The notes under the pieces: model-generated
What the model saw: only the letters and a program-made list of their open reading frames with translations
Told to the model about the DNA's origin: nothing
Databases searched by the model: none
Shown here: piece after piece, positions 19,446 to 59,460 of the stretch
Layout of the letters: the number at the start of each line of letters is the position of its first letter
How positions within the stretch are numbered: the stretch's first letter is position 1
Source: Paenibacillus sp. NAIST15-1
Lineage (GTDB): Bacteria; Bacillota; Bacilli; Paenibacillales; Paenibacillaceae
Assembly: GCF_001894745.1 (NCBI RefSeq)
Contig: NZ_BBYF01000026.1
Location: forward strand, 1 to 64,000
DNA: 64,000 nucleotides
Reading direction: 5' to 3'
Program-made: the position numbers and the translations under genes

Positions 19446-19580
19446 AACAGCGATACAATGAATAAAGGGATCGTGCTACCAACACGATCCCTGCACAACG
19501 GCCGCATGTAAGAACGGTCGGCTGCAAAGACGGACATGAAATAGACCGATACCTTGCTATGGGGCGGTCTATTTCCGTTT
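19446..19580 (+). ncRNA. Putative antisense antitoxin RNA of a type I toxin-antitoxin pair
   Basis: Predicted from the promoter at 19411-19438 and a hairpin AAATAGACC / GGTCTATTT (about 19540-19576) followed by CCGTTT that could terminate it. The RNA would be complementary to the entire 3' untranslated region and the last codons of the holin-like toxin mRNA, the usual geometry in TxpA/RatA- and BsrG/SR4-type systems. Its existence is inferred. Confidence 0.45.
19461..19491 (-). terminator. Terminator of the toxin mRNA
   Basis: Nine-bp perfect stem GGGATCGTG / CACGATCCC, followed on the minus strand by TTTATTC. It lies about 80 bases after the toxin stop codon. Confidence 0.75.
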
Positions 19581-19652
19581 ATTAAACGATAACAGCATCA
19601 CGATAAGCGTACCAAAGCTAATCATTAGCGTTAGTGCTTCGAATACTGTCAT
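19569..19652 (-). CDS. Putative holin-like toxin (type I toxin peptide)
   Basis: A 27-residue peptide: acidic start MTVFEALTLM, one membrane-spanning segment (ISFGTLIVMLLSF) and a basic NKRK tail. This is the pattern of the 'putative holin-like toxin' family (Hol_Tox) common in Firmicutes, which depolarises the membrane when overexpressed. A strong GGGAGGTGA lies 5' of the ATG. The leader segment TCTCCC-TGAC-GGGAGG (about 19661-19676) can fold over this site, as in other type I toxin mRNAs. A -10 TATGAT sits at 19723-19718. Paired with the antisense RNA above. Confidence 0.85.
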   Translation of the reverse strand: MTVFEALTLMISFGTLIVMLLSFNKRK

Positions 19653-19675
19653 GGGCATCACCTCCCGTCAGGGAG

Positions 19676-20076
19676 ACTAGCCGACCGCCCTTCATGCCGA
19701 ATCAGTTGTACTCATGTATCATACCATAATTTTCTACAGTCAGAATATATATTTGAACCTTCATTCGAACACAGTAGTCTAGACTACCCTTAATATGAGG
19801 CCATTCAAGCACCTCTAAGGACAAGTTCTTATATCGGATGATATAAAGAATGCCTTGGGGGTATTTTTGTATGTAACTTCAGTATGCCTGGCGAATGGTC
19901 AATGTCGGACGGCACATAGAGGCACCAAATTGCTCCTCATGTTATAGATAAATATACCGACAATAAGTTTTCCTTATGCTAGGGATTGCATATCCGTATT
20001 TCCCCTCACGAGCGAAGCCATATATAGTATTCATCGTAAGCATCAGGTTACACCTGCTTAGAGACGGGGGATGGAT
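19676..20076. promoter_or_regulatory. Intergenic region between toxin and yeiH-like gene
   Basis: No gene is seen. It contains the toxin promoter (-10 at 19718-19723), a palindromic GTAGTCTAGACTAC at about 19773-19786, and AT-rich sequence with CCTTATGC and TTGCAT near 19975-19995 that could belong to the LysR-controlled promoter of the exporter gene. Confidence 0.4.
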
Positions 20077-32379: not shown

Positions 32380-33747
32380 ATGAAGAAGACAACCATTGCA
32401 ACTACCGTAGCATTAGCTCTTGGATTGATGGGTGCACAAGCGTATGCAGCCCCGGCGACACAACCAGTCGACACGAAGGCTGTTGCAACGAGCATGGAAG
32501 TGAAAGACTTGGGCACGAATTTCTACGACAAATATGTGAAGCAGTTCGTATATAACGAGAAGGGCGACATCGTAGGTACAACACGTGGTGCTTCTCTGGA
32601 TAAAAAATGGGTACATAACGTCAGCGCTCAAACATCGGTAACCATTAACGGTAAAAAGGTATCCAGCCAAGTGAAGGTGGACGGCAACCATATTCTCGTA
32701 CCAATCCGTACGGTAACAGAAGGACTGGGCTACAAGCTGGATTGGAATAACAAAGACAAATCGATCACTGCAGTTAAGGGAGACAAGAAGGTTACGGCCG
32801 TGTTGAGCAAGGATGAGTATGGGCAAGCGAAGGATGTTCTTCAACTTGGAAAAGCAGCATTGCTCAAGGAAAAGCAAATCTATGTTCCACTGCAATTTGT
32901 AACGGATGTGCTGCATGCAGGTGTGACGATGGACGCCAATGGGCATATTGATATCCTTCAAATTGACCAAACTCCGCAGGATTCCTTCGGCGGCATGCAT
33001 TGGGTGCTCGTCGTAAATGGCGAAGGACTTGGCGTAGATAAGAAGGATATATACACGACCGAACACAACGTCATGGTACCTGTTGAAGAAATCGGCAAAG
33101 CACTCGGTTACAAAGTCGAGAAGAACGAGAAGACTGGCGCTTTCGAGTTCACACGCGCTGCTAAGTGGATTGCGCTGAAGGAAGGCGACACGAAGGCATC
33201 TGTAGGCAAAATGCTCGTCGAATTGAAGGAAGCTGCAGCAGTGAAAAACGGCAAGCTGTACATGCCAGTTGACTCCCTTGGCGACGTCTTCGGTGTGAAG
33301 TTCGGCATCGACCCGACTGGCGTAATCGGTATTGGTGAAGGAGCAGAAGGAAAAGAAGATCCAAACCAAATTCCACAGGATTCCTTCGGCGGCATGCACT
33401 GGGTGCTTGTCGTAAACGGTGAAGGCCTCGGCGAGATATCGAAAGAAGTATTCACGACTGAACACAATGTCATGGTGCCAATCGAACAGATCGGCAAGGC
33501 GTTGGGCTACAAAGTAGAGAAGAACGAGAAGACTGGCGCATACGAGTTCATGCGCGGGGCGAGATGGATTACGCTGAAGGAAGGCGACAAGAAAGCCTCT
33601 GTTGCTAAAATGTTCGTCGAGCTGAAGGAAGCACCAGTGGTGAAGAACGGCAAGCTCTTCATGCCGCTCGACTCCATGCAAGATGTCTTCGGCGCCGAGT
33701 TCGGCGTAGACCCAACAGGCGTTGTTGGAATTAGCGATAAAGAGTAA
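32380..33747 (+). CDS. Secreted stalk-domain protein with three copper-amine-oxidase-N-like modules
   Basis: A 455-residue secreted protein: signal peptide (IATTVALALGLMGAQAYA), a first stalk module at about 85-190 (VTINGKKV, ILVPIRTVTEGLGYKLDW, IYVPLQFVTDVL) and two near-identical 125-residue modules at about 198-325 and 330-455, each opening PQDSFGGMHWVLVVNGEGLG. Such modules pair in cell-surface proteins of Paenibacillus and Clostridia and probably act in wall binding. The last two modules are close copies at DNA level too (32974-33350 and 33369-33747), indicating recent tandem duplication. GAGAGGAAG precedes the ATG. Confidence 0.85.
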   Translation: MKKTTIATTVALALGLMGAQAYAAPATQPVDTKAVATSMEVKDLGTNFYDKYVKQFVYNEKGDIVGTTRGASLDKKWVHNVSAQTSVTINGKKVSSQVKVDGNHILVPIRTVTEGLGYKLDWNNKDKSITAVKGDKKVTAVLSKDEYGQAKDVLQLGKAALLKEKQIYVPLQFVTDVLHAGVTMDANGHIDILQIDQTPQDSFGGMHWVLVVNGEGLGVDKKDIYTTEHNVMVPVEEIGKALGYKVEKNEKTGAFEFTRAAKWIALKEGDTKASVGKMLVELKEAAAVKNGKLYMPVDSLGDVFGVKFGIDPTGVIGIGEGAEGKEDPNQIPQDSFGGMHWVLVVNGEGLGEISKEVFTTEHNVMVPIEQIGKALGYKVEKNEKTGAYEFMRGARWITLKEGDKKASVAKMFVELKEAPVVKNGKLFMPLDSMQDVFGAEFGVDPTGVVGISDKE

Positions 33748-33915: not shown

Positions 33916-34097
33916 TATTGGAATAGGTCATTGGAACTTATTTCAGGTGAGGGAATACTGATTTCAGTATGTATGTTGAATAAATGGTATAAATTACATG
34001 GAAATATCGACCTGTGCATGGATAATTAGTAGTGGGTATTTGCGAAGTTTGCGAATATACAGTTATAGGAAATATCCGAAAAAATGAGGGGAAGAAC
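33916..34097 (+). other. Transition into AT-rich accessory DNA; first cassette boundary
   Basis: From here GC content falls visibly. Near 34040-34068 the sequence TTTGCGAAGTTTGCGAATATACAGTTATAGG (outer part GAATATACAGTTATAGG) resembles the 3' ends of the palindromic elements downstream (ATACA..GTTA). It may be the left boundary of the first cassette. Confidence 0.4.
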
Positions 34098-34853
34098 ATG
34101 AATACACTTAAGGAGAGTTTTGCTCAATTTATAGAGGAACCTACTCGAGAAGGCTTACGTGAAGTATTAAGGACAAATCTTGGAGAAACAAATAATTTAG
34201 ATTTTAAAGAGGAATGGCCGGCTTATCCAAAAGTAGCAAAACTCATCTTAGCTTTAGCTAATAGCGGTGGGGGCTGTATTATTTTCGGTGTTAAAGAGAG
34301 TGAATCTTCCGATCTGATACCTGTCGGAATAAATGAGATTGTTGATAAAGCAGAGATTCAAAGTAAGCTATGCCTGTTCCTTCCTGATGAACTAACGTGG
34401 GAAGTATTAGATTTTCGTTACAATGATTCAGAATATTCATCAATTGTTGGTAAGAAATATCAAGTGATTTTTGTAAAGGACGATCCAGAACATATACCAT
34501 TTATTACTCAGAAGAATGGTGAAAATATAAAAAATGCTGCAATTTATGTTAGGCGTGGTACAAGTTCGGAAGAAGTAAATTATGTTGAATTACAGAAGAT
34601 AGTTAATAGAAGAATAGAAACAGGTTATTCAACTACTTCTGAAATTAAATTAGAAGAGCATTTATCACAATTACAGATATTGTTTTCAAACGTTGAGAAA
34701 TATAAGTTTACTTCTTTGTTAGAGCCATTACGCGGCATGCTTTTGGGAACTAAAGAACTAAATCCGAAGTATCCTGAAGAAGATTATGAAAGCTTTATTC
34801 TAAGAATGATAAGTAGAAAAAAACTGAAAATTGAAAGACTTATTGATAATTGA
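34098..34853 (+). CDS. AlbA_2 (Schlafen-type) putative DNA-binding/ATPase-like protein
   Basis: A 251-residue protein with an AlbA_2/divergent AAA-4 domain at about 25-175. The diagnostic run ETNNLDFKEEWPAYPKVAK then LILALANSGGGCIIFGVKE is clear, and IYVRRGTSSEEV marks the second half. Such domains occur in regulators and in some antiphage proteins; the role here is unknown. GAGGGGAAGAAC precedes the ATG at 34098. Codon use is much more AT-rich than the upstream genes. It is the first of several single-gene units each followed by an imperfect palindrome. Confidence 0.78.
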   Translation: MNTLKESFAQFIEEPTREGLREVLRTNLGETNNLDFKEEWPAYPKVAKLILALANSGGGCIIFGVKESESSDLIPVGINEIVDKAEIQSKLCLFLPDELTWEVLDFRYNDSEYSSIVGKKYQVIFVKDDPEHIPFITQKNGENIKNAAIYVRRGTSSEEVNYVELQKIVNRRIETGYSTTSEIKLEEHLSQLQILFSNVEKYKFTSLLEPLRGMLLGTKELNPKYPEEDYESFILRMISRKKLKIERLIDN

Positions 34854-34884
34854 TTTAAGCTATTTCAATGATGTCGGATACTAC

Positions 34885-35025
34885 GTATCTGAGCTGCAGA
34901 CCTCGGTCTGCAAGAGAGCATTACAAAGAGGTGACTCAGCAGACAATCCTGAGAGGCTAAGTTCGTCGGATTCAGTCGCTAGCGTTGCCTTAAGCCTCTC
35001 GGGCTCGTAGATACAAACAACGTTA
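34885..35025 (+). repeat. Cassette-type palindromic element A
   Basis: Outer arms GTATCTGAGC (34885-34894) and GCTCGTAGATAC (35003-35014) pair with two extra bases in one arm. A second stem GAGAGGCT (34951) / AGCCTCTC (34993-35000) and a third TGCAGACC / GGTCTGCA lie inside. The element ends AACAACGTTA (35016-35025), just before the next gene. Core sequence is shared with elements C and D. Confidence 0.75.
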
Positions 35026-35061
35026 TTCAAAATCGATCAAACAAAAAAGGAGATAAGTATA

Positions 35062-35736
35062 TTGATTCATCAGATCATTCATTTCTACATTAAAGAATTA
35101 GGGAATTATAATTTAGTATTCAAGAAGATGAAGGTATATTGGTTTGGTTATATAGGCTTTTTGTTGTTTGTTGGAACTATTATTCTATTCTCACCTGAAG
35201 ATTATAAGCAGTGGGCTTCTATTATCTTCTTCACTTTAACGCTTATTGGAATATACCTTGTGAACTGGAAGGCAAAGAAAGTGGTGTTTAATACTTACGG
35301 ACTTGATCAAGATGAAGTAATGTGGGGCGGGTCTAGTTTTGCTTCCTATAAAGAAGAAAGATTAAAAGAATATTTAGAAACTAAATTAAATTTAAACTTA
35401 ACAAAAAAATCCACAAAAATTATTGATGCATTAAACAAAGAAATAGAAACAACAAGACTTTCGATTTTTTTTGTTCCAGGTATATTTATAGGACTATTTA
35501 TTCCAATTTGGAACCAGTACGCTGTTTCTCTATTTAGGAGTATAAGTATCAGAAGTGAAATAGTAGAACTCTTAGTAACTCATGTTGTTGGAATTGCTAT
35601 TATTACATATTTGGCTTCTGTAGTTAAATTTGTTTTATCAGATGTAATTGCATTTAGAAGGACGAGATTAAAAGAGCTTGTAGGTTTAGTTGAAGGTATC
35701 TCATTGAAGCTAGATGAAGGTAACTCTGAAAAGTGA
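35062..35736 (+). CDS. Unrecognised four-helix membrane protein (cassette gene)
   Basis: A 224-residue protein with membrane segments near 33-50 and 57-73, then two more after a charged middle (FFVPGIFIGLFIPIW and VGIAIITYLASVVKFVLS). No known family. The start is a TTG with AAAAAGGAGAT seven bases upstream. It begins 37 bases after element A and ends at element B with no other gene in the unit. Confidence 0.65.
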   Translation: MIHQIIHFYIKELGNYNLVFKKMKVYWFGYIGFLLFVGTIILFSPEDYKQWASIIFFTLTLIGIYLVNWKAKKVVFNTYGLDQDEVMWGGSSFASYKEERLKEYLETKLNLNLTKKSTKIIDALNKEIETTRLSIFFVPGIFIGLFIPIWNQYAVSLFRSISIRSEIVELLVTHVVGIAIITYLASVVKFVLSDVIAFRRTRLKELVGLVEGISLKLDEGNSEK

Positions 35737-35890
35737 TGAACTTTGGGTTCACGCACTGGGCATTCGTCCTCAGGTCAGCAGAAGTAATTGGTAGGGAATC
35801 CAAGGTAGCCGGACACCAACGACTAAGTGCATCGCACCCGGCGAATTCGTCGCATTAATTCGGTGGGAATTCGTGAATACAAGAACGTTA
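35737..35890 (+). repeat. Cassette-type palindromic element B
   Basis: Starts at the stop codon of the membrane-protein gene. Outer arms TTCACG (35748-35753) and CGTGAA (35872-35877). The central block CGACTAAGTGCATCGCACCC resembles the CTAAGT-CGTCG core of A and C. It ends GAATACAAGAACGTTA (35875-35890), the same terminal motif as A and C although most of the rest differs. Confidence 0.65.
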
Positions 35891-35941
35891 TGTGCAATTA
35901 CTACATTAATTGAAATAACAAAAAAGAGAGGAAAAACCTCC

Positions 35942-36670
35942 ATGAAACTTGATCCAAAACAATTATATGAGTATTTTGAATCAATTGGTATTAAATACTT
36001 ATATCATGCGAATACAGTGCCAACAGCATGCACATTTATTCGTGCCGGTGGCATTCTCTCAAGAGGTGCAGTAGAAGAACAAGGATTATATCAAACTCCT
36101 CAAAGCTCAGACGAAGTGGATCAAGAATTTAATGTATGGAATGATATTTTTCTTGATTGTAATGATTTACATAAGAGATTTGGTAGAGAAAATAGGTATG
36201 GGCCAGTATTATTCAAATATAGTATTGAATTATTACTTGATCATAATTTACCAGAGGTATGGATTACCAAGGATAATCCAATACGGTGGAATTCAGAGCA
36301 AAAAGTTGAAGAAAGGTATTTTATAAACATTGATGAACTTAAGGACAGTTATAGTGACAAATCATATATTGAAATGATTACATTAAGGTTTACTAAATCA
36401 CCGTTATCTTTTAAATACTTAAAGGAAATCATTTTAGACAATCCAAAGGTTCGTATTGGTGAATTGATTTTATATAAAGATGCAGCAAAAATATTAAAAG
36501 AATCATTGGATTCAAGTGATTTTGATTACACTGGCTTAAAGAGAACCACTAGAAACTGTATAGCATGTTATTGCCATTCAAACTATCTGCGACAATACAC
36601 ACCAGCAAAATTAAAAATAATATTTAGGGGAAATGATGGATACCCTGAAGATGGCAGTAACAGAGCATAA
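35942..36670 (+). CDS. DarT-like (DUF4433-type) protein, possible ADP-ribosyltransferase
   Basis: A 242-residue protein. The N-terminal LYHANTVPTACTFIRAGGILSRG pattern (YHANTVPTA then FIRAGGILSRG) followed by QTPQSSDEVDQEFNVWNDIFLD resembles the His-x-Thr/NAD-binding start of DarT-like ADP-ribosyltransferases, but no DarG-like macrodomain partner is nearby. The assignment is inferred from pattern only. GAGAGGAAAAACCTCC precedes the ATG at 35942. It is a single-gene unit lying between elements B and C. Confidence 0.5.
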   Translation: MKLDPKQLYEYFESIGIKYLYHANTVPTACTFIRAGGILSRGAVEEQGLYQTPQSSDEVDQEFNVWNDIFLDCNDLHKRFGRENRYGPVLFKYSIELLLDHNLPEVWITKDNPIRWNSEQKVEERYFINIDELKDSYSDKSYIEMITLRFTKSPLSFKYLKEIILDNPKVRIGELILYKDAAKILKESLDSSDFDYTGLKRTTRNCIACYCHSNYLRQYTPAKLKIIFRGNDGYPEDGSNRA

Positions 36671-36821
36671 CAACATATCTATGCCCAAGGGCCTTCCGCC
36701 CGTAGGTTCGTCAAAAGTAATCAAAGAGGTAGCTCCAACGAACAACCCTAAGAGGCTAAGTCCGTCGAACCCGGACGCATTCACTCCCAAAGCCTCTCGG
36801 TTTCGTAGATACACAACGTTA
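36666..36821 (+). repeat. Cassette-type palindromic element C
   Basis: Overlaps the stop codon of the DarT-like gene. Left arm CATAACAACATATCTATG pairs imperfectly with CGTAGATACACAACGTTA (36804-36821). An inner stem AGAGGCTAAG (36751) / AGCCTCTCGG (36791-36800) encloses a GTCCGTCGAACCCGGACG core nearly identical to element A. Confidence 0.75.
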
Positions 36822-36903
36822 ATATCCCAATCTTTATTATCACAATAAATTTTCCTTGTAAAAATGTAAAGATTATGAGTTTGATAATGGGGGAGAAAAA
36901 AAT

Positions 36904-37210
36904 ATGTCAGACAACATTAGGCTGCTACAGCTGGAATTACCAGAATCTGAACAAAAATTGTTTGAACAGAAAAAGTTGAATTCAAGAAGCTATCTGAGAT
37001 TGAATATTGAAAATAATAAATTTTATTATTTTCAATTATTCGGAAGATGTTTTCTATTTAGAAGTTTAGACGCCAGCTTGATGAGAGATGAAGGATTACT
37101 CCATTCTTTAATCCATTAGAACAAGCGAAAAAAAGTTTGATTTAAATAAACGATCAACAATTCCTAATTTATTGGATGAAAAATATAAAGTGAGACAAAT
37201 GCTTATTTAG
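36904..37210 (+). pseudogene. Frameshifted unknown cassette gene
   Basis: A start with GGGGGAG upstream opens MSDNIRLLQLELPESEQKLF and continues to about codon 65. Coding potential then continues in frame +1 (ITPFFNPLEQA) and again in another frame (FDLNKRSTIPNLLDEKYKV) to a TAG at 37208-37210. Two frameshifts, or sequencing errors in A-rich runs, would restore a roughly 100-residue protein of unknown family. Confidence 0.55.
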
Positions 37211-37271
37211 AGATTATTGATTTCCAGTGATTCGTGAGTGATTCAGGAAGTCGGGAACTTCGTTTATCACT

Positions 37272-37400
37272 GCATTCAGGCATACGGCAGGTATTGGTCG
37301 TCTCTCGGTCTCCAGAAGGATTTCGAGGAAGTGAACCCAAGAACACATCCGACACCCCTAAGATAAGAGCTATCTATCGAGTTGGGGGTGTCATGAATGC
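37272..37400 (+). repeat. Cassette-type palindromic element G
   Basis: Outer arms GCATTC (37272-37277) / GAATGC (37395-37400), inner stem GACACCCC (37351-37358) / GGGGTGTC (37385-37392). It lies between the decayed gene and the NTPase gene. Sequence is unrelated to A/C/D apart from the nested-stem layout. Confidence 0.4.
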
Positions 37401-37499
37401 GGAAACGATAAATGAAATTCCTAATATTAATACGGATTGATCTTAGATACTAGAGACCAATAATTATTACTTTCTAATCATTGAAGCATAAGGTGGAAT

Positions 37500-39560
37500 A
37501 TGAAAATGGAGCATTTAGTTGAAACGATTCTTGACTATGTAAAAAAAGATGACACTAATTATGCACTTATGATTAATGGGAAATGGGGGAGTGGTAAGAC
37601 TTTTTTTTGGCAAAATAAAGTGAAAGGTAAAATTGAAGAGATAGCAATAGGTGAAGATACCCTTAAAACTATTTACATATCTTTGTATGGAATAACTAAC
37701 GTTGATGAGATAAGTAAAAAAATTTGTTATGAAGTTTATTCCACTTCCTTAAAGAAAAATAAAAAATTAAAAGGACTTATGGAAAGCAAAATGGGAAATG
37801 CATTGCCTGAACTAGGCAAAATGATATTAAGTGTTGGAAAATCACTTGGTATAGATCCAATCGGGGAAACTAATGTTGATTGGAGTAAATTGTTCTCCTT
37901 CAAAAATAAAGTTTTATGTTTTGATGACTTAGAAAGAGCAAATATCAGTATTACTGAAATCCTAGGTTATATCAATAATTTTGTAGAACATGATGGCGTC
38001 AAAACAATTATTATATGTCATGAGGAAGAGATTATTTCTAAGGTAGTAACCGAGAATAATGAGTTAAAAAAAATGGTTGCTACTTACATATTAAATATAG
38101 AAGGGAAATTAGTTGGAACAAATCAAAATGCTTCAACAGTGAAAGATGAACAACCACAAAAATCCATACTTGAAAAAATAAATGGAATGGTAACGGATTT
38201 ATTCGAAAAAAGCAATGATTATAAAAGTATTAAAGAAAAATTAATCGGAAAGACACTCTATTATCACCCTGATCATTTACAAATAATAGAGAACATTATT
38301 AGTAATAATAATGGATATTCCTCTAAAAGTTTTGCTTTAATGAACAAAGCCCATATAATTGATATTTTTAATAGAAGCAATACTAGAAATATAAGAATTT
38401 TAATTCAAGCCCTTAGCGATTTTGAACGTATATATAAAAAGCTTGAAAAACACTACTCGAAGTTGGACAATCAGATCAAACTTTCCATCTTAATTCATAC
38501 TCTGATTCATTCTTTTGAGTTGAAATCAGGAAATATTTCAAGTAATGATTTCTTAGAAATAAATTCTAATGCCGATCTTCAACAAAGAATTATTATGGAC
38601 AGAATGTACAAAAAAGAATCAAATTTATCTGAAGTATTAATGAAATATAATAATGTGTATTCAAAAGGAGAATTCATCTTTTATTCCTTTGTTAAAGAAC
38701 TAGTTTGTAAAGGAATTTTTCAAATTGAGGTGTTTGAGCGTGAAATTGAAGCTCAACTAGCAAATTTATCTATTAAACAATCACCAGGATATATCAAAAT
38801 AATTCGGGAAGGATACTGGGAACTTACGGATGATGAGTTCGCAACAGCTCTTTCCGAAACTTATGATGTTATAAAGAATGGTGAGGTTAGCCTGAAATAT
38901 TATTATTCTGGGTTTTTAGTGTTTTTAAAGTTCAAAGAGTTAGGATTGGTAACCGAAGAGATTCAAGAAATAAAAAAAATGTTCATGGATGGTCTTGATA
39001 AAGCATCAAAGAATGCAAAATATTTTTCCGACTTAAATAGTTATTTTATTCGTTACGAGAATTATAGTAATGACCCAGATGTTTTGGAAATAAGGCAAAG
39101 AATTACTGATATTAATAATGATCTTAACCTCGAAAAAGAAAAAAACAATGTATGTGAATTAATGAAGCTGTTGGAACACGATCTCTTGGAATTTTATAAA
39201 AAGGTTGATGAAGAGCATTGGTATAAGCCACTATTTGCATATACTGAATCGAAATTGATAATGGATATTGTTTTAGCTATGCCCAATAAAGATATTTTTA
39301 AATTCAATCACTTTATGTTTAAGAGATACCAGGAGATAGAAGAGAATTTGTTGATTGATATTTCAGTTCTGAATGAATTGAGGGCATTGGTCGAGGAATA
39401 TATAGATGATTTCTTAAAAAGAAATGAATTGAAGTTAAGGATTTCAAATTTGCAAATATTAAACAATACACTTCAAACTATCTCAAATAATTATCAAAAT
39501 AAGTTTTGTGTCGAGGTTGAATCTGTCGATTCAGATGCTTCACAAGAGATGAATGTTTAA
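37500..39560 (+). CDS. KAP-type P-loop NTPase (cassette gene)
   Basis: A 686-residue protein. The first about 200 residues hold a KAP-like NTPase: Walker A MINGKWGSGKTFF (about 24-36), YISLYGI sensor-like strand, and Walker B KVLCFDDLERANI (about 137-149), where the DDLER ending is characteristic. The C-terminal 450 residues are all-helical with a Lys/Glu bias and no known domain. KAP proteins are often tied to membranes or to antiphage defence. AAGGTGGAAT precedes the ATG. It is the largest gene of the cassette-like stretch. Confidence 0.78.
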   Translation: MKMEHLVETILDYVKKDDTNYALMINGKWGSGKTFFWQNKVKGKIEEIAIGEDTLKTIYISLYGITNVDEISKKICYEVYSTSLKKNKKLKGLMESKMGNALPELGKMILSVGKSLGIDPIGETNVDWSKLFSFKNKVLCFDDLERANISITEILGYINNFVEHDGVKTIIICHEEEIISKVVTENNELKKMVATYILNIEGKLVGTNQNASTVKDEQPQKSILEKINGMVTDLFEKSNDYKSIKEKLIGKTLYYHPDHLQIIENIISNNNGYSSKSFALMNKAHIIDIFNRSNTRNIRILIQALSDFERIYKKLEKHYSKLDNQIKLSILIHTLIHSFELKSGNISSNDFLEINSNADLQQRIIMDRMYKKESNLSEVLMKYNNVYSKGEFIFYSFVKELVCKGIFQIEVFEREIEAQLANLSIKQSPGYIKIIREGYWELTDDEFATALSETYDVIKNGEVSLKYYYSGFLVFLKFKELGLVTEEIQEIKKMFMDGLDKASKNAKYFSDLNSYFIRYENYSNDPDVLEIRQRITDINNDLNLEKEKNNVCELMKLLEHDLLEFYKKVDEEHWYKPLFAYTESKLIMDIVLAMPNKDIFKFNHFMFKRYQEIEENLLIDISVLNELRALVEEYIDDFLKRNELKLRISNLQILNNTLQTISNNYQNKFCVEVESVDSDASQEMNV

Positions 39561-39587
39561 TTAGGTGGTCAGTAACTCCACAAAAAC

Positions 39588-39720
39588 CGTCTCGTATCTA
39601 CATGGTGGGCGCTGCCTTTGGTTAGCAAAGATGAAGTAAGCAAGTTGATAACCCTACGAGGTTAAATCCGTTGGATCCGGCGCTATGCGAATGAAGCTTC
39701 TCGGTACGAAAATACAATTG
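39588..39720 (+). repeat. Cassette-type palindromic element D
   Basis: Lies 28 bases after the NTPase stop. It contains CCTACGAGGTTAAATCCGTT and GAAGCTTCTCGGTACGAAAA, diverged forms of the A/C core (GAGGCTAAGTCCGTCG ... AAGCCTCTCGGTTCGTAGA). Its arms, CGTATCTAC and GTACGAAAATAC, pair poorly, and the terminal AACGTTR is replaced by ATTGG. A second ATACAACTAACGTTGATAA end occurs at 39871-39889. Confidence 0.6.
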
Positions 39721-39900
39721 GAATGACCCAAGATATAAGGATGGATAGGAATTTTTAATAATTTAAACAAATCAGCGAATTTCGGAAAAGATCTAGTAGG
39801 GAGGGTTCTAGAAGATATTGTTTACATACTGTTTGGATAAAGTATATAAGTTGAGTTTAAATAGTCGAAAATACAACTAACGTTGATAAGGAAAATTTCA

Positions 39901-40257
39901 ATGGATGTAACAAATGAAATGAAAAAATTACTATTCGTATGCAGCAGAAATAAATGGAGAAGCTTAACTGCGGAGAAAATCTTTAATCTTTTGAGTGAAT
40001 ATGATGTAAGGTCAGCGGGTACTGAAGAGGGTGCTCGGATTAAAGTTACAGGTGGTCATATTGGCTGGGCAGATATCATTTTTGTGATGGAGAAGAAGCA
40101 TATAAGAAGATTAAGAGATAAGTATAGTTTTGAGTTGAATGGTAAGAAACTAATATGCTTGGATATTCCAGATGATTTTACATATATGGATGAAGAACTA
40201 ATCGAGTTGTTGAAAGCAAGAGTATCCGAATATATAGAAATCCCAGATGAATTTTGA
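39901..40257 (+). CDS. Low-molecular-weight protein-tyrosine-phosphatase-like protein (cassette gene)
   Basis: A 118-residue protein whose P-loop LFVCSRNKWRSLTAE (Cys-X5-Arg-Ser, Cys at about residue 13) is that of LMW protein tyrosine phosphatases. The GHIGWADIIFVMEKKHI segment fits the middle of the fold. The family's catalytic DP motif near the C-terminus is not obvious (IPDDF instead), and the protein is about 30 residues short of classical enzymes. It begins 12 bases after an AACGTTG end, the same position relative to the repeat as its neighbours. Confidence 0.75.
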   Translation: MDVTNEMKKLLFVCSRNKWRSLTAEKIFNLLSEYDVRSAGTEEGARIKVTGGHIGWADIIFVMEKKHIRRLRDKYSFELNGKKLICLDIPDDFTYMDEELIELLKARVSEYIEIPDEF

Positions 40258-40310
40258 AAGAAATAGAAGAAGCCTCAACTGCGAACAAAAAGTGATTCAT
40301 TGGAGACATT

Positions 40311-58463: not shown

Positions 58464-58521
58464 TTTTGCGAATAACTTAAGTCATGACGAATTTACGAAG
58501 TTCGCAAAAAAGACGTTAGCC
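58464..58521 (+). repeat. Cassette-type palindromic element F
   Basis: A 58-bp unit with arms TTTTGCGAA (58464-58472) and TTCGCAAAA (58501-58509), then AAGACGTTAGCC (58510-58521). The 3' end GACGTTAGCC resembles the AACGTTR ends of A-C and integron attC core sites. Lies 31 bases before the nucleotidyltransferase gene. Confidence 0.6.
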
Positions 58522-58552
58522 GAAAGAAGTTCTTAGTTTAGGAGGAGTCTAT

Positions 58553-59323
58553 ATGATATTAGAAAAAGTTATAAATAGAATTGTAATACAAAGTGAATAT
58601 AAGGATTTTGTTGATAAGTATATAGATAATATACTTACCGAATTTAAAGGTAAGATTCATAGCATTTATATGTGTGGCTCGATTCCAAAAGGAACTGCTA
58701 AACCTTTCAAGTCAGATGCAGACTTTACTATTGTATGTGTAAATCCCAAAGATATTGATTACGAAAGATTGTCAAATATTAAAGACAGGCTTTTGGAAGA
58801 ATATCCAGTAGTAACTAAGATTGATACGATAATTTGCTCGATTGAAGATGTATTAAGTAAACCAAATGAGTGGGGTTTTTGGGTAAAGATAATTTGTGTT
58901 TGCATATATGGTCATGACGTTGGTGAAAAAGTACCACCGATAATTATTTCTCCAGAATTCATTTTAGACTTAAATACAGAGACCAAGGAGGAAGTAGATC
59001 GTATACATAGTTTACTTTCTAATGCTAGTGATAACACAATGAAAATTAGATATATTAAAGGTTACTCTAAGAGATTAATTCGTGCATTATACTCTTTGGT
59101 TTTAGAAGATACAGGTTTATGGCAAGATGACATTATTAAGATGAAGAATGCCATATTAAACTATTGTGAGATTGACTCCGCTTTAGTTGATTATCTGTAT
59201 GCTTGTTACTTGGATAGTAATAATGTACTTGTTGAAGAGTTTCTGGGAATTGCAGATGAAGTATATAGCTATTTTGAGAACGCGTTAAATGCAATGGCTG
59301 CTTCCAGAACTTCCTTCGACTAA
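58553..59323 (+). CDS. Nucleotidyltransferase-domain protein (cassette gene)
   Basis: A 256-residue protein with the nucleotidyltransferase signature CGSIPKGTAKPFKSDADFTI (GS then D-x-D) near residues 42-60, as in aminoglycoside nucleotidyltransferase relatives, followed by an all-helical C-terminal half. Whether it modifies antibiotics or another acceptor is unknown. TTTAGGAGGAG precedes the ATG. It is a single-gene unit between palindromes F and E, with AT-rich codon use. Confidence 0.8.
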   Translation: MILEKVINRIVIQSEYKDFVDKYIDNILTEFKGKIHSIYMCGSIPKGTAKPFKSDADFTIVCVNPKDIDYERLSNIKDRLLEEYPVVTKIDTIICSIEDVLSKPNEWGFWVKIICVCIYGHDVGEKVPPIIISPEFILDLNTETKEEVDRIHSLLSNASDNTMKIRYIKGYSKRLIRALYSLVLEDTGLWQDDIIKMKNAILNYCEIDSALVDYLYACYLDSNNVLVEEFLGIADEVYSYFENALNAMAASRTSFD

Positions 59324-59411
59324 CACCATATTGACGTTTCGGGTCACTCTGAGAAGCGAGTGACCACATCCAGCCCCCTAAGCCCGTCGGGACGTCACTG
59401 CATTAGGTGTT
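59320..59411 (+). repeat. Cassette-type palindromic element E
   Basis: Begins at the stop codon (CTAACACC) and ends GCATTAGGTGTT: AACACC (59322-59327) pairs with GGTGTT (59406-59411), with TGACGT / ACGTCA-type pairing next and an inner hairpin GGTCACTC / GAGTGACC. The CTAAGCCCGTCGGGACG core resembles the CTAAGTCCGTCG core of C. Confidence 0.7.
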
Positions 59412-59460
59412 CGGCAAGCCTCACAACTATAAGCAGCGACTCTAATTAAAACATAAGACT

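Follow-up and report, generated by a model that had tools for sequence, protein, structure and literature searches.

A probable decayed integron cassette array in Paenibacillus sp. NAIST15-1 and arrays beside tyrosine recombinases in Paenibacillaceae

Positions 34042 to 40257 of the window (the whole 64,000-nucleotide stretch of Paenibacillus sp. NAIST15-1 DNA that was analyzed) very probably represent a decayed integron cassette array, made up of an attI-like site and mostly one-gene cassettes with their attC sites, in a genome without an integrase. The array, the attI-like site, the adjacency of an integrase to such arrays in relatives, the cassette boundaries at G/TTA (the slash marks the crossover), and the presence of the same cassettes at different places and in different genera can be read directly from the sequence; from them we infer integron activity. 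The first-pass annotation of this DNA had interpreted the region in a similar way, and its interpretation is supported by the analysis.

Cassettes and attC sites in the window

The array consists of the following parts.

34042..34073, + strand: attI-like site; crossover G at 34062, then TTATAGGAAAT
34063..35022, + strand: cassette 1; Schlafen AlbA_2 ORF 34098-34853 and attC A, boundaries at G/TTA
34876..35029, + strand: attC A; 104 bits with the covariance model, model seed, 5' core mutated
35023..35887, + strand: cassette 2; ORF 35062-35736, without Pfam match, and attC B
35735..35894, + strand: attC B; 106.3 bits, model seed
35888..36818, + strand: cassette 3; ORF 35942-36670, without Pfam match, and attC C
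36665..36825, + strand: attC C; 131.4 bits, model seed, R'' GCATAAC, R' GTTAATA
36819..37407, + strand: cassette 4; 71-amino-acid ORF 36904-37119 and attC E
37257..37414, + strand: attC E; 45.5 bits, E 1.5e-9, not a seed and absent from the first-pass annotation
37408..39727, + strand: cassette 5; KAP NTPase ORF 37500-39560 and decayed attC D
39591..39727, + strand: attC D, decayed; 17.2 bits over 39610-39708, E 0.025
39879..40257, + strand: orphan R' (AACGTTG) and last unit, with the low-molecular-weight phosphatase-like ORF 39901-40257

The cassettes had been described as unrelated in function, and this is borne out by what they encode: a Schlafen AlbA_2 protein (PF04326, E 5.1e-12), two products without Pfam match, the 71-amino-acid ORF, a KAP NTPase (PF07693, E 1.3e-8), and a phosphatase-like protein (PF01451, E 3.3e-6). 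The cassette 3 protein has a 41% identical relative on a Salinivibrio record, and the KAP NTPase also resembles a PADLOC candidate phage-defense family (PDC-S49, E 2.8e-84). The array begins almost where the annotation had placed its start, the motif AACGTTR precedes the next unit at 35019, 35884, 36815, and 39879 as had been reported, and the core said to be common to A, C, and D was recovered as direct repeats joining the three elements. Of the claim that six genes are each followed by an element, the part concerning A, B, and C stands; D is a weak match, the AACGTTG at 39879 has no 5' arm that could be recognized, and behind the phosphatase gene the search found no site. A search of the region against Rfam identified no RNA family, the best matches (E 0.27 and 0.62, both to snoRNA models) being at chance level. 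Elsewhere in the window, a member of the BsrG RNA family (RF01412, 69.1 bits) lies at 19468-19710 on the minus strand, and the ORF at 32380-33747 contains a 297-base direct repeat (33042-33737) with a spacing of 399 bases and copies that are 77% alike.

A covariance model (R1) was built from ten elements of the same genome. A, B, and C, which had been proposed as attC-type sites, score 104, 106, and 131 bits with it; since all three are among the ten seeds, independent support for them comes from the genomes of the genus, the genus arrays, the family loci, and the phylum draw. The attC consensus (CaTC..aTAACA..gtATTcAcGC ... TcgtgaAtacaagAACGTTAt..GAAAt) contains R''/R' and L''/L' arms and a GTTRRRY-like core, a layout that is clearest in the window in element C, with GCATAACAACATATCTATGC as its 5' end and CGTAGATACACAACGTTA as its 3' end. 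The L and R stems are 96.1% paired, with 94 double-change cells versus 15.5 in shuffled data, in an alignment that was fitted to the model. Two extra bases in one arm of A had been taken for the extrahelical bases of attC sites, but as a rule this fails, because L'' and L' are mostly fully paired across the family.

Folding, the check that the annotation had suggested, was unconvincing as far as energy alone is concerned. As bottom-strand DNA, A to D gave folding z scores of -1.17, 0.06, -1.69, and 1.25, and as top-strand RNA, -2.70, 0.23, -3.25, and 1.54, so that B and D did no better than their shuffles. Among the 40 scorable elements of 150, the L stem formed in 33 on the top strand and in 37 on the bottom strand. 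The case for attC is one of conservation, covariation, and breakpoints.

The proposed search of related genomes with a covariance model uncovered arrays across the family. We take this family to be Paenibacillaceae on the strength of the integrase tree, in which Paenibacillus sp. NFR01 (L188) falls within it. At E<=0.05, R1 matched 18 of the 19 genus genomes, that of the window at 23 places; at E<=1e-6, it matched 286 of 394 family genomes, which represent 16 of 19 genera (the family-wide site search scored 7 candidates per genome). In a draw of 299 genomes from the phylum there were four matches, namely, the genome of the window, one other member of the family, and two single borderline matches; the latter are the only ones among about 294 genomes outside the family, a figure that takes the five family genomes listed as all of them, the unlisted rows appearing to be ordered by kinship. 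Three of those five family genomes had no R1 match. Across 80 loci of integrase relatives, R1 sites were strong beside the Paenibacillus gene of L188, with one further match at E 0.001 (L218) and two weak ones in L217, so that beside non-Paenibacillus relatives there was almost nothing. The remark that cassette arrays are hardly known in Paenibacillaceae agrees with PMC9024848, but the arrays themselves are common there.

Integrases and attI sites beside the arrays

The annotation had seen no integrase in view, and none of the array type was found anywhere in the genome. A search for integrase remnants that covered the window and seven loci of this genome had its best match at E 0.001, about 17 kb away. 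Within the genus, pieces of a tyrosine recombinase lie just before the first site in four arrays, and array-type integrases occur at six places in 5 of 19 genomes, all of them decayed. With its integrase lost, this genome is left with window pieces that are CALINs with relic attI sites. In the 19 genus genomes, no protein scored above the cut-off of the IntI profile TIGR02249; the best match, in genome G013, is presumably XerD-like, judging from its sequence and its neighbor.

A tyrosine recombinase, the enzyme that the annotation had advised looking for, was found at the array ends of relatives. Integrase matches were obtained in 165 of 394 family genomes (8 candidates scored per genome), and from the best matches in these we chose 20 loci. 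In all 20, the sites lie downstream of the recombinase and on its strand (182 sites at E<=0.1), a placement that was confirmed for 150 of 150 when the best 150 of the 182 were rechecked. Among these 150, the site nearest to the integrase frame is 302 to 1816 bp away in 19 loci and 4853 bp away in L184. The frame is full length in 18 of the 20, L183 having one stop and L174 an internal deletion. Across the 394 genomes, 162 have both integrase and sites, 3 have the integrase only, 124 have sites only (that is, without a strong integrase match), and 105 have neither (Fisher p 1.2e-26).

Complete platforms in relatives consist of the integrase gene, attI just after its stop codon, and then codirectional cassettes; in one example the stop codon is followed by TATTTACGAAGTACATAAATTAGATG, the crossover point, and TTA. 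In six loci that belong to one genus, the 20 bases before the break show an identity of 0.94 and TTA one of 1.0; beyond TTA, the values drop to 0.42, 0.52, 0.37, and 0.25. In one of these loci the G is replaced by A. A weight matrix was derived from 14 such stretches chosen by eye, one of which reached a score of just 10.0 with it. In the window, two places stand far above the rest, 34042 at 22.8 and a further site at 58495, and the best unrelated place reaches 14.0. The second site opens another integron piece (58495-59450), 24 kb away from the array.

58495..58526, + strand: second attI-like site; crossover G at 58515, score 34.9, the best in the window
58516..59450, + strand: nucleotidyltransferase-like cassette; ORF 58553-59323, attC 59317-59450 with its 3' end lost

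Sites resembling attI were also observed in several genus genomes, away from any array-type integrase found (L299, L300, L301, L306, L314, L302, and L308). Some of these have different cassettes directly behind them (GNAT-like, kinase-like, and PfpI-like by eye), and some share a left flank of about 75 bp. The genome of the window contains a further copy of the nucleotidyltransferase cassette that is 98% identical (L292, G000:C3:49650-50607).

This cassette is 97-98% identical at attI-like sites in three genus genomes (G013, G015, and G001) that yielded no array-type integrase, and the genome of the window encodes a protein that appears to be XerD-like. Both observations would fit a genus in which cassette movement continues, driven in trans by another recombinase such as a host Xer protein or an integrase on transient mobile DNA. 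We consider this unlikely, given that the decayed integrases in five genus genomes offer a simpler history and that the left flank of about 75 bp common to copies behind attI-like sites makes block transfer or descent as likely a cause of the identity. No link to the arrays was seen for the Xer-like genes of this genome.

Cassette boundaries, shared cassettes, and contents

A cassette that enters as a circle, with crossover after the G of GTTA, should have a start that matches its own R'' and not the next cassette's start. Boundaries were examined for 294 sites (all 129 of the genus arrays, the best 150 of 182 from the family loci, and 15 of 17 from the search that scored the elements of the window), of which 189 units survived filtering. 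All three positions of the cassette start are complementary to the own R'' in 123 of the 189 units and to the own R' in 25. Behind full-length integrases the agreement is with the own R'' in 78 of 100 units versus 9 of 100 for the next cassette's start, and shuffles gave a mean of 7.6 and a maximum of 18 (one member of a near-duplicate pair being omitted). The corresponding counts are 30 versus 10 of 69 units in the loci of the window's genus and 3 versus 0 of 7 in the genome of the window. Complementarity between start and own R'' is the signature left when circles integrate with crossover at G/TTA.

The annotation had also called for a comparison of breakpoints, and between species one and the same cassette does follow unrelated sequences, the junction falling at G/TTA within AACGTTR. 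The nucleotidyltransferase cassette of the window is 91-98% identical to array cassettes of other species and genera. It stands behind five different attC ends in four genera (L279 and L280 in genus g1, L183 in g3, L173 in g9, and L176 in g5) and behind an attI-like site in the window and in L276, L277, L278, and L282. The copies agree to the right of the crossover G, and among those with attC-type hosts there is no agreement to the left. In L092 and L098, one unit is 86% identical and the flanks differ on both sides. The ends of shared cassettes were read in 8 of 27 pairs.

Because strong stem-loops after genes could also be ordinary terminators or REP-like intergenic repeats, and A and C fold as RNA better than their shuffles, we weighed the reading that the palindromes are such elements and the arrays vertical relics. 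It is extremely improbable: the asymmetrical ends are conserved, cassette starts complement their own R'', one recombinase stands beside all 20 arrays chosen, and identical cassettes with different neighbors contradict it, as do the G/TTA breakpoints.

The cassettes are short, mostly of one gene and in one orientation, and unrelated in function. In 127 units with a median length of 768 bp, the longest ORF is in line with the array in 98, on the opposite strand in 22, and absent in 7. The Pfam and defense searches took 97 of the 117 cassette ORFs, the in-line ones, and these match 85 Pfam families in all. Among the matches listed, cassette ORFs of the 20 family loci (L168-L187) resemble candidate phage-defense families, including PDC-S07, mad2, and NucC.

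Several observations count against the preferred reading of the window as a decayed cassette array. In its own genome, D and the unit boundary at 39879 are broken, and the start complements the own R'' in no more than 3 of 7 units; more widely, the IntI-specific insert is absent from the integrase, 124 genomes have sites only, and 22 of 127 cassettes have their ORF on the opposite strand. If the reading is right, the integrase of relatives would act on free cassette circles, cutting their attC in its folded single-stranded form and joining the circles at attI. Its N-terminal domain may help to grip the folded DNA and so take the place of the IntI insert that the enzyme lacks. The cassettes of the window's genus would be stranded as CALIN, unless an enzyme acts from elsewhere.

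The integrase and its place among known systems

The family integrase carries PF13495 and PF00589. Its closest solved relative is VchIntIA (PDB 2a3v; sequence E 1e-38), which is also the closest fold of the predicted model (pLDDT 86, pTM 0.65) at E 1.2e-15; with a TM score of 0.57 on the query and an rmsd of 7.7, the superposition is loose overall. At the place of the IntI insert the integrase has 25 residues versus 67 in VchIntIA, so that the IntI-specific insert of about 42 residues is absent. The spacing between two conserved motifs is 107 residues in six long-form relatives, 63-72 in the insert-less relatives in which it could be measured, and 65 in the family alignment. The first 80 or so residues form a separate domain (pLDDT 91) with five predicted strands and two main helices, which is possibly HARP-like; the HARP domain is a five-stranded sheet with two helices, according to PMC4666394. 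The HARP profile PF07443 matched 4 of 17 N-terminal segments (best E 5.7e-7), the Paenibacillus segment not being among them; of six family integrases it matched one, at E 0.0059, which falls short of the cut-off. A Foldseek search with the domain returned nothing at E<=0.001; the N terminus of an archaeal XPB ranked third (E 0.29).

The shared site layout and the VchIntIA-like fold raise the question of whether this is a canonical IntI integron acquired horizontally from Gram-negative bacteria, and a tree that unites the family and six canonical IntI in one clade is not rejected (p-AU 0.143). We regard such an origin as very improbable. TIGR02249 scores the family integrases at 202.9-213.6 bits in five of five proteins, under its cut-off of 265, the insert is missing, and the sites occur in 16 of 19 genera. 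In a tree that excludes one long-branch row and two rows read in the wrong frame, the 27 family integrases form a clade of their own (95/91), apart from the six canonical IntI (100/100). In the absence of the IntI-specific domain, we do not class the system as a canonical IntI integron.

Insert-less relatives of the integrase occur in Bacteroidota, archaea, and others. In Flavobacterium enshiense (L201, 11000-20239) and Rufibacter (L200, 11000-21074), attC-like repeats follow an insert-less integrase in line. In the former, start and R'' match over at least 6 bases in 7 of 8 units versus 1 of 8 (shuffle mean 2.2, maximum 7); in the latter, 4 of 6 units agree, a count no higher than that of its shuffles (maximum 4), and the own R' does so in 3 of 6, with single matches of up to ten bases. 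The repeats of a third locus (L203) were rejected as attC on their appearance. There is about an even chance that these integrases, with their possibly HARP-like N-terminal domain for branched or folded DNA, represent a second integron lineage, native to Paenibacillaceae and occurring in Bacteroidota as well (F. enshiense and perhaps Rufibacter). Were this true, the recognition of folded attC would have arisen, or been kept, without the IntI domain that is taken to define integron integrases.

According to PMC9024848, Firmicutes contain integrons extremely rarely, the examples being one complete system, in Limnochorda pilosa, and a few CALIN. A literature search that included few subscription papers and had preprints outside its scope found no description of Paenibacillaceae integrons. 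A common detection tool requires the IntI-specific domain (PMC9668308), so the family integrases should be passed over by it. One Bacillota family carries integrons widely in a group where they were thought almost absent. The IntI insert is described as needed for integron recombination, again in PMC9668308, and an insert-less integrase beside arrays with marks of recombination allows a direct test of that need. In addition, the arrays form a large reservoir of small, unstudied genes, some of them phage-defense-like.

IntI integrases have PF13495 and PF00589 domains. The system described here resembles IntI integrons such as that of VchIntIA in its R''/L''/L'/R' attC sites, GTTR cores, attI, one-gene cassettes mostly in one orientation, and PF13495-PF00589 recombinase; it differs in an integrase without the IntI insert, with an extra N-terminal domain, and reading toward attI, and in its occurrence in Bacillota. 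Of the other solved folds and profiles, those of Xer recombinases (XerC, XerD, and XerA) rank among the nearest, but the family integrase falls in a separate clade. Like CALIN, the window and its genome hold attC clusters without an integrase; unlike them, the window pieces keep attI-like sites, and relatives have the integrase. Transcription of the integrase toward attI, in line with the cassettes, is shared with the "reverse" integrons of Treponema (PMC3607928), and attI just downstream of intI is shared with archaeal integrons, whose IntI is nevertheless described with the IntI-specific domain (both from PMC9668308); Treponema and the archaea belong to different phyla. By its layout and the traces of its working, as far as sequence can tell, the system is an integron with a different integrase.
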